A stretch of 46,833 nt of DNA from Pirellulaceae bacterium (GTDB lineage: Bacteria > Planctomycetota > Planctomycetia > Pirellulales > Pirellulaceae), in assembly GCA_022446825.1 (NCBI GenBank), contig JAKVBY010000027.1, positions 141,318 to 188,150 on the forward strand, given 5' to 3'. This document shows positions 25,204-27,345 of the stretch, piece by piece (the stretch's first letter is position 1; every line of letters begins with the position of its first letter). The position numbers and the translations under genes are program-made. Under the pieces are notes generated by a model. The model made no database searches. It worked only from the letters and a program-made list of their open reading frames with translations, and had not been told where the DNA came from.

Positions 25204-27123
25204 TTATCTTAGGAAGGTGAGCCCCGCGTAGCCGGAAATGCCAGGCGTGGCGAATCCAAAAACTTCTTCGTAGTCTGTATCGGTGAGATTCTCCAGCCTT
25301 GCAAAGGCCCGCCAATGGTCATTGATGGCGTAGCTTCCAGAGACGTTTAGTGTGATGTAAGTGCTCAGATCTTCTACGGCCGCCGTACCGAAATCAGCAC
25401 GCGTGCCGACGTAGAGCAGATACAGGTTAAGGTCTGCACGGTTGTCACATGTGCGCTGCTGTAGATTCACGCTTGCTTTGTGGCGAGGGCGTCGTAGCAA
25501 CTGACTGTTCGTAATTAAATTTTCTGTATCGTTGTAGGTATAACTGGCATTGAGTGACGTGAAATCGGTCATCCGAAGCTTGGCGGTTAGTTCGATTCCA
25601 CGGGATTCTGCGAGTCCGACATTTTGCAAACTAAAAGAAGGGAAATCGAAAACAATCAAGTTTGTGAAATTGTTGCGAAAGTAAGTTGCGTCTGCGACAA
25701 GAGCACCACCCAGGAAGGTTTGTTCGACGCCGATGTCCCAGCCTTTACTGAATTCCGGCCGTAGGGATGGGTCACCCAGGAAAAAGAATGTTGAACTTTG
25801 AGCGATCGATGGAGCGCGAAATCCGCGTCCGATACTACCGTGAATTCGCGTCCCGGTTTCATCGAAACGGAACAATTGAGTTAGCCGATAGGTTTCGGCC
25901 GAACCGGCAGTACTGTGATCATCCCAACGTACGCCGATGCTGGTAAAAGATCTTTTACCCATTTGAAACCGATCTTCGATATATACGCCAGCTTGAGATC
26001 GCGGCACATTGGGAGTAGATGTCGTGGACGCTTCTTCTTGCCAGTAATCGATGCCAGTCACAAGTCGGTTTGTTTCGGTCAACAGGAGGCCTGCTTGCCA
26101 ATCGACTTGTGAGGTTTGCCCGTTAAATTCCGGGGTGCCAAAGATTCCGGGGTCCGTATCAATCCGTTGGTAGTCGGTCAGGCTGAAGCCCACCTTGTTT
26201 TCAATGATTCCGTCTAGTGCCGACGAGGCAATTTGCACACGCTGGAAAAATTGTTCCGTTTGGTTTTCTCGTATTAAATTGTCGAGAAGATAGTCGTCGA
26301 CTTCCGCATCCGCTGCAGTAAAACGAAAAACATAATCAACGTTAATGGATGCTGACGGGGTCCAGCCGAAGCGGCCCGAAACGGCGGTGCGTTGAAAGCC
26401 GTCTTTTTCCAGGCCACCAAGCCGCCGACTCACTGCAGAGAAACCATTTGTATTCAAATAGGAGGCACCGACCGAGTAATACTTGTTATGGTCGCCACCA
26501 CTAACGGAGATGCGTTCCTCGTGGGTGCCAAAACTGCCTCCAGATGCGCTGGCGAGCACGCGCTGTGCCCCATCGGCTCGCCGGGTGACGATGTTGATGA
26601 CGCCACCGATTGCGTCCGACCCATAGACCATACTTTGAGGACCGCGGACAACTTCTATTCGTTCCACGTTGTCTAGAGATAAAGTAGAAAAGTCAAAGGC
26701 TCGGGTGGGTCCACTAGGATCGTTGGCCGGAATACCGTCGATAAGTACCTTGGTGTGCTCCGAATTGGCTCCCCGCATAAAAATCGATGTTTGACGACCC
26801 GGGCCCCCCGCTTGGACCACATCCACACCAGAAATCCCACGCAAAACTTCCGACACGCTGGAATGTCGTGAGGCTTCAATCTGGTCACGGGTGATCACCG
26901 TGACGGAAGATGCGGTTGTATTGGCCAGGGATTCCCCACGGCCCGGTGTGACCAAGGTGTCTCCTGCAAGCGGATTCGTCGGAAACGGATCGGGTCTGGC
27001 CTCAACAACCGTTTCTGGCAACTGTAGTGGTGCAAGTTCATCGTCGCTTTGAGCAAACAACCATTGGCTGGAAAATCCATGGCAACCGACAGCGGCAATG
27101 ACCGCCAAACAAAAACAACGCAT
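25204..27123 (-). CDS. btuB: TonB-dependent outer-membrane receptor, BtuB-like
   Basis: 639 residues from ATG 27123, preceded by GAGGAGG and giving a proper signal peptide; the in-frame extension to 27204 would overlap the riboswitch. A TonB-box-like ETVV (37-40) follows the mature start. The plug domain (about 60-190) has the hallmarks SVSEVLRGISGVDV, IFMRGANSEHTKVLIDGIPANDP and ERIEVVRGPQSMVYGSDAIGGVINIVTRR. The 22-strand barrel runs to the C-terminal aromatic region (GYAGLTFLR). The plug resembles BtuB, and the cobalamin riboswitch upstream supports vitamin B12 or corrinoid uptake. The energising TonB system is not adjacent, although an ExbBD pair lies 10 kb away. No ABC transporter genes are adjacent. 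Confidence 0.85.
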   Translation of the reverse strand: MRCFCLAVIAAVGCHGFSSQWLFAQSDDELAPLQLPETVVEARPDPFPTNPLAGDTLVTPGRGESLANTTASSVTVITRDQIEASRHSSVSEVLRGISGVDVVQAGGPGRQTSIFMRGANSEHTKVLIDGIPANDPSGPTRAFDFSTLSLDNVERIEVVRGPQSMVYGSDAIGGVINIVTRRADGAQRVLASASGGSFGTHEERISVSGGDHNKYYSVGASYLNTNGFSAVSRRLGGLEKDGFQRTAVSGRFGWTPSASINVDYVFRFTAADAEVDDYLLDNLIRENQTEQFFQRVQIASSALDGIIENKVGFSLTDYQRIDTDPGIFGTPEFNGQTSQVDWQAGLLLTETNRLVTGIDYWQEEASTTSTPNVPRSQAGVYIEDRFQMGKRSFTSIGVRWDDHSTAGSAETYRLTQLFRFDETGTRIHGSIGRGFRAPSIAQSSTFFFLGDPSLRPEFSKGWDIGVEQTFLGGALVADATYFRNNFTNLIVFDFPSFSLQNVGLAESRGIELTAKLRMTDFTSLNASYTYNDTENLITNSQLLRRPRHKASVNLQQRTCDNRADLNLYLLYVGTRADFGTAAVEDLSTYITLNVSGSYAINDHWRAFARLENLTDTDYEEVFGFATPGISGYAGLTFLR

Positions 27124-27164
27124 CAAGTTCCCTCCTCGAAGAAATGAGATTTTTTGAGCTCTGA

Positions 27165-27345
27165 AATCGATTTTCTGGCTTGGGATTTCCCTTTGACCAA
27201 GCATTCCCCGTCTGAGACGCCTGGTGGCGACTCTCCCTGTGGCTTTGGTTGGTCTTTGTCGCCCATCGCAATCGCGGGACGGGGGAAAGATTCACACTCC
27301 ACTCTCTCTAAAATGCAGAACGTGGAATTCGATCGTGCGAAACCT
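27165..27345 (-). ncRNA. Cobalamin riboswitch upstream of the BtuB-like receptor
   Basis: On the minus strand the leader carries the ordered conserved blocks of the cobalamin aptamer: GTGTGAATC (27297-27289), GTCCCGC (27280-27274), AAAGCCAC (27246-27239), GGGGAATGC (27209-27201) and the 3' tail CAAGCCAG (27182-27175). GACCAA (27254-27249) can pair with TTGGTC (27200-27195), enclosing the P6-type arm. The aptamer ends about 45 nt before the receptor ATG, close to the GAGGAGG ribosome-binding site, so control of translation is likely. Ends are approximate. A BtuB-like gene downstream fits well. Confidence 0.75.

Follow-up and report, generated by a model that had tools for sequence, protein, structure and literature searches.

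A degenerate cobalamin riboswitch core ahead of a BtuB-like receptor gene in a planctomycete genome

The leader of a BtuB-like receptor gene in a Pirellulaceae genome contains a degenerate copy of a cobalamin riboswitch. The window analysed here is a stretch of 46,833 nucleotides from a genome of 6.17 Mb that is 94% complete. All positions are given in whole-window numbering, and both the receptor gene and its leader lie on the minus strand. The aptamer core, from P3 to P3', occupies 27167..27312 (-). We consider it probable, if by a modest degree, that the element was inherited vertically as a cobalamin riboswitch, has undergone partial decay in this genome's lineage and now responds weakly or not at all to B12. 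If that is so, the leader captures an intermediate state of riboswitch loss before an intact transporter gene. It is a modest finding, a glimpse of a common regulator under loss or reshaping.

A sequence-only reading of the window had proposed a recognisable, presumably working RF00174 element here and had named an RF00174 hit in the leader as the check. That check failed. A cmscan of the whole window with RF00174 and all other Rfam families returned no match at gathering thresholds (31.5 bits for RF00174). A permissive RF00174 scan of 511 bases gave 10.3 bits at 27303-27171 (-), with E=3.2 for 4227 families. Genome-wide, where 150 of 259 first-look candidates were scored, this match (E=9) comes last of three. 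The two higher matches (13.7 and 11.1 bits, same 150 candidates) were taken as chance because they lie inside or antisense to long open reading frames. None of the scored candidates (150/259) exceeded the RF00174 threshold; in the same search, under stricter filters, 52 of the 59 other genomes have a match that does.

A model built from closer relatives gives a very different result. This covariance model, R1, was made from the aptamer cores of 12 homologous btuB leaders with the window excluded, and has 131 positions and 29 pairs. Its members are locus L051 and 11 of the 12 over-threshold leaders in a first homologue set; the twelfth, L014, has a riboswitch over threshold and was kept out because it is of a different type by appearance. 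R1 finds a single match in the window, at 27312-27167 (-), with 45.2 bits and E=1.2e-10. Genome-wide the element has E=1.6e-8 and the next best match 13.9 bits (150 of 1323 candidates scored); these E-values are rough by the tool's own statement, and the margin to the next match is wide. An R1 match of this strength at the expected spot before a homologous gene means more than chance resemblance. On these scores the leader can securely be said to share descent with accepted cobalamin riboswitches, and to that extent the proposal stands. A DNA search for a second copy of the riboswitch in the genome gave only short, chance-like matches.

That this is an ordinary leader in which the conserved blocks arose by chance, with no riboswitch at all, is therefore hardly credible. 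The lack of any Rfam match over threshold speaks for it, as do the two higher RF00174 scores that fall within or antisense to coding sequence elsewhere in the genome, but the independent R1 match at the expected place refutes it to any practical standard. Thermodynamic folding is also unremarkable (z=-1.04 for the leader, -1.32 for the core), yet five intact relatives do no better (0.58, -0.49, 0.27, 0.91 and 1.03), so the folding z-score is uninformative. Base-pair probabilities were rejected as evidence for a similar reason. In the window the consensus pairs are near zero except for P7 (0.35), and values are also low in the intact leaders L006 (at most 0.18) and L009 (0).

The anatomy of the leader is that of an RF00174 cobalamin riboswitch in its order of parts (P3, P4/L4, P5/L5, P6, P7, P8, AGCCAG box), in an L5 that faces a ribosome-site hairpin, and in its position before a btuB-like gene. 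The claim that aptamer blocks stand in the right order ahead of the receptor thus holds for location and order, from 27312 to 27167 (-), but the copy is degenerate rather than clean. It differs from RF00174 in scoring 10.3 against a required 31.5 bits, in its altered invariant positions, in an insertion of about 15 nucleotides between P7 and P8, and in a bulged P8. An outer stem, P2, is possible: GUUCUG at 27316..27321 (-) could pair over 6 bp with CAGAGC at 27158..27163 (-), a pairing equalled in 3.2% of 1000 shuffles. The outer stems of the closest relatives, L068 and L069, are longer, at 9 and 10 bp. The P4/L4 block, placed at 27284..27300 (-) by alignment with these two sisters, retains its L4 loop GUGUGAAUC, and its P4 3' arm has a C>U change and a one-base insert. 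The P5/L5 kissing-loop block CGUCCCGCG at 27273..27281 (-) is the same as in both sisters. The start of P6, at 27266..27273 (-), reads GAUUGCGA where relatives have GACUGUAA, so that two invariant positions are altered.

The 5' arm of P7, GACCAA (27249..27254, -), pairs perfectly with its 3' arm UUGGUC (27195..27200, -); relative to L068, two pairs have changed on both sides. Between P7 and the GCCAC block lies a spacer of 20 nucleotides at 27229..27248 (-) where the sisters have 5, which by eye gives the insertion of about 15 nucleotides. The P8 block, GCCAC...GGGGAAUGC, occupies 27201..27228 (-), with GGGGAAUGC in place of the conserved GGGAAGGC. A G>U change within GGGAAGGC has created an AUG at 27202-27204 (-) in frame with the receptor. 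The B12 box survives as a remnant, AAGCCAGAAAAUC, at 27169..27181 (-), whose counterpart in L068 is GAGCCAGGAUACC. Downstream, the P13/L13 hairpin UUCUU-CGAGGA-GGGAA at 27128..27143 (-) holds the ribosome-binding site; it corresponds to UUCCU-CGCGGA-AGGAA in L068, and its pairs survive in the window as wobbles.

The window lacks part of the conserved core of the related leaders. Measured against all 42 riboswitch-bearing leaders, 40 from the family and two from the order, it keeps 25 of the 29 invariant columns and alters the other 4; among the 55 columns conserved at 90% it departs at 11. Against a selection of 28 relatives used in a first comparison it alters 7 of 46 invariant and 11 of 57 conserved columns. 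Relatives in that set alter at most 1 and 4, each changing none or one of the columns that all the others keep. Four of the seven altered invariant columns belong to P8; their alignment is unsure on account of the insertion, and two of the four could be recovered by eye. The clearest changes are GGGA to GAGA in P3 and ACUGU to AUUGC in P6; CCACU and GGGAAGG around P8 have also clearly changed, as has AGCCAGGA, conserved at 90%, which reads AGCCAGAA in the window.

The window is not alone in leaving the conserved core, since L099 nearly equals it. L099 alters 4 of 33 invariant and 10 of 55 90%-conserved columns in the 42-leader set. Two leaders of a different type, L014 and L087, alter 17 of the 57 columns that are 90% conserved, and apart from these three the next relative alters 4. 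L099 itself (genome G263, 313-453) is a second, milder outlier, with 39.4 bits against RF00174 and 62.4 against R1.

The relatives place the window's score in context. In the first homologue set, receptor homologues were found in 15 of the 59 other relatives; 12 of the 15 leaders exceed the RF00174 threshold, L013 and L016 have no match, and the sequence of L019 stops short of the leader. A wider family census at E<=1e-120 gave 51 loci in 50 of 241 genomes, window included. Neither search turned up a further genome of the window's genus that carries this gene. Among the other 50 btuB loci, the leaders of forty exceed the RF00174 threshold (39.4-88.0 bits) and those of nine show no match (L013, L016, L072, L076, L094, L095, L096, L098 and L101), L098 being a stretch of only 411 bases; the remaining locus, L077, ends at the gene and is unscored. 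With its 10.3 bits, the window is the sole family locus to fall between no match and a match over threshold. Three pairs of loci (L051/L070, L052/L072 and L053/L077) are 100% alike over the whole shared stretch, and each pair was counted once. One of these bears on the lineage: 4938 bases of locus L070, from family member G105, match L051 without a difference, and L051 comes from a Planctomycetota metagenome-assembled genome, which bears out the planctomycete assignment.

The closest relatives by protein are L068 (66% identity) and L069 (62%), and both have intact riboswitches (80.7 and 79.6 bits against RF00174; 128.9 and 124.5 against R1, which was built without either). A quick 36-protein tree joins the window first to these two (support 99) and then to L005 and L070 (98), and all four leaders are intact. 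These intact leaders share with the window a homologous gene, the same place before it and the same ribosome-site hairpin, and L068 and L069 share its L5 exactly. In score they are far apart from it: L068, L069, L070/L051 and L005 reach 68.6-80.7 bits against RF00174 and 124.5-130.1 against R1 (L005 and L051 were among the leaders used to build that model), whereas the window reaches 10.3 and 45.2. The next grouping out (support 99) contains L006, which is intact, and L072, which has no element.

Since its nearest relatives are intact, the degeneration is assigned to the branch that leads to the window alone. Indeed, when the topology was fixed to a 29-row protein tree, the window's aptamer branch of 0.80 changes per site was the longest of the 29 (next 0.47); those of L068 and L069 are 0.064 and 0.013, and the window's protein branch is 0.294. 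By ratio of aptamer to protein branch the window is in fifth place among the 29; four short-branched leaders of a single genus (g2) exceed it and still score as intact. Loss of the element recurs in the family, because the tree (36 rows, 35 scored leaders) requires at least five changes between intact and non-intact, one for each of the five non-intact rows. The analysis demonstrates homology, altered conserved positions and change on the window's own branch; a weak or absent ligand response is what we infer from these.

The constraint on the leader is still visible at the sequence level, and decay would be far from complete. Where both sisters agree, the window differs in 7 of 46 invariant columns, rising through 4 of 11 and 10 of 27 to 24 of 30 among the most variable. 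This pattern also fits a cobalamin riboswitch that has diverged yet still works, beyond what the general Rfam model is able to score, and whose affinity or choice of corrinoid may have shifted. We regard such a switch as a serious possibility, with somewhat less than an even chance. L4, L5, P7 and the ribosome-site hairpin are all retained, and the 6-bp outer stem is possible (p 0.032), though shorter than in L068 and L069. Moreover, L099 is nearly as altered and is over threshold, and the intact L007 likewise has CGAGGA in its loop. A hand-made table of 27 pairs contains 11 that have changed, and 8 of these can still pair where 3.5 to 6.7 would be expected. That statistic weakens once transition bias is allowed for: the chance probability runs from 0.002 to 0.28 for transition weights of 1 to 8, and the observed 22 transitions and 10 transversions correspond to a weight of about 4 and p of about 0.07, in a table whose hand alignment favours pairs and which omits P2, upper P8 and the P6 extension. 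With the same omissions, 24 of the 27 pairs are standard; in the core helices P3 to P8, 21 of 29 R1 model pairs are standard and 6 are gapped (relatives 20 to 29).

Against a working switch stand the altered invariant positions in P3, P6 and P8, the insertion of about 15 nucleotides beside P8, and an RF00174 score of 10.3 bits where the 40 family riboswitch leaders have at least 39.4. A more specific version, in which the aptamer has been remodelled under continuing selection so that the altered core changes ligand preference or affinity, a sub-threshold variant missed by standard models, seems to us rather unlikely. For a partly decayed riboswitch, which remains the reading we prefer, the changes in P3, P6, P8 and J6/3, together with the P7-P8 insertion, would weaken or abolish ligand binding, and the receptor would then be expressed more or less constitutively. 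With the platform kept and the aptamer changed, weak or absent repression is most likely. The retained L5, the P13 hairpin, the perfect P7 and the above-threshold L099 all weaken the case for decay.

The expression platform suggests how intact members of the family would work. Many relatives have a hairpin like UUCCU-CGNGGR-AGGAA adjoining the start codon, with a loop complementary to L5. L5 and this loop change together: GACCG/CGGUC in L070, GAGCG/CGCUC in L005, CCCGCG/CGCGGG in L011 and CCGCG/CGCGG in L068 and L069. Read as sequence, these versions are natural covariation for a kissing loop. A kissing-loop scan covered 15 of 30 rows, the window's row lying outside them; its shuffle values are mostly not small, intact rows included, and we therefore take only the loop sequences from it. 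Two of the rows covered, L008 and L075, yielded no such hairpin. In the window, L5 is as in the sisters and the L13 loop CGAGGA leaves one mismatch; the CGAGGA-containing loop of the intact L007 is likewise mismatched. A search of the window's leader found no terminator-like site, and this, with the L5-L13 complementarity, fits translational repression on ligand binding. In intact relatives the aptamer would bind a corrinoid, L5 would dock onto the loop of the ribosome-site hairpin and btuB translation would be turned off, a mechanism that we infer from the layout of the leader and from what is established for the class.

The receptor gene has an intact frame at 25204..27123 (-). Translation probably begins at the ATG at 27123, which has a Shine-Dalgarno sequence, GAGGAGG, 7 nucleotides upstream at 27131..27137 (-). 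The AUG at 27204 offers another reading, in which the aptamer has turned into an upstream start or into a different regulatory RNA. The frame from 27204 is indeed open past 27123 and through the whole receptor, giving 666 amino acids, but a purine run directly abuts this AUG, which leaves too little spacing for a good ribosome site, whereas the ATG at 27123 has the well-placed GAGGAGG and, by eye, a signal-peptide-like start. There is also no unusual fold to suggest a different regulatory RNA, and we consider either conversion very improbable.

The encoded protein is a BtuB-like TonB-dependent receptor with the plug and barrel of that class (Pfam PF07715 Plug, 107 bits; PF00593 TonB_dep_Rec_b-barrel, 144 bits). 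The best of 34 families is TIGR01779 (TonB-B12, BtuB), at 310.2 bits and E=2.8e-92, with residues 82-656 aligned to positions 30-604 of 614; this lies below the curated cut-off of 599.7 bits and so outside curated membership. The receptor is probably a corrinoid importer, given its best curated family and the RF00174 matches before 40 of the other 50 family loci. The proposed corrinoid substrate thus draws support from TIGR01779 and the relatives' leaders, rather than from this leader alone.

Loss of the need for B12 is not supported as the cause of decay. A 1233-amino-acid frame in the genome carries a MetH activation domain, which makes a need for B12 likely; the domain is present in all eight genomes searched, this one included. 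A PF01717 search of the genome revealed no full-length MetE, its only match being a frame of 338 amino acids. No BtuR/CobA-type adenosyltransferase (PF02572) was found in any of eight genomes (G000, G060, G061, G105, G015, G034, G007 and G008).

Our literature searches for cobalamin riboswitches in Planctomycetes with TonB-dependent receptors found no paper, which is not a claim that none is in print, and among the matches listed for degenerate, vestigial or lost riboswitches, as far as their accessible text goes, none concerned this case. The portions consulted of PMC9600662 and PMC10653944 hold nothing decisive for this leader. Atypical B12 riboswitches of Mycobacterium tuberculosis, as described in the consulted part of PMC11260477, belong to a different lineage and have demonstrated binding.

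Riboswitch by descent need not equal a usable regulatory annotation. If the leader has decayed, a family with several element-less leaders could show which parts vanish first and whether the gene turns constitutive; should the leader still function, it would reveal which nearly invariant nucleotides the class can do without.

Other loci show further variation. L014 and L087 score 85 bits against RF00174, yet 36.1 and 40.0 against R1, so decay cannot be read from a low R1 score by itself; their riboswitches were perhaps separately acquired. Genome G226 has two btuB-like genes, L087 with a riboswitch and L094 without, and some riboswitch-less btuB-like loci may accordingly be paralogues. Two further loci, L056 (2094-2271 and 2635-2889) and L057 (2416-2608 and 2701-2890), each have two cobalamin riboswitches upstream of a btuB-like gene; one is from Desulfuromonadaceae and one from Geobacteraceae.
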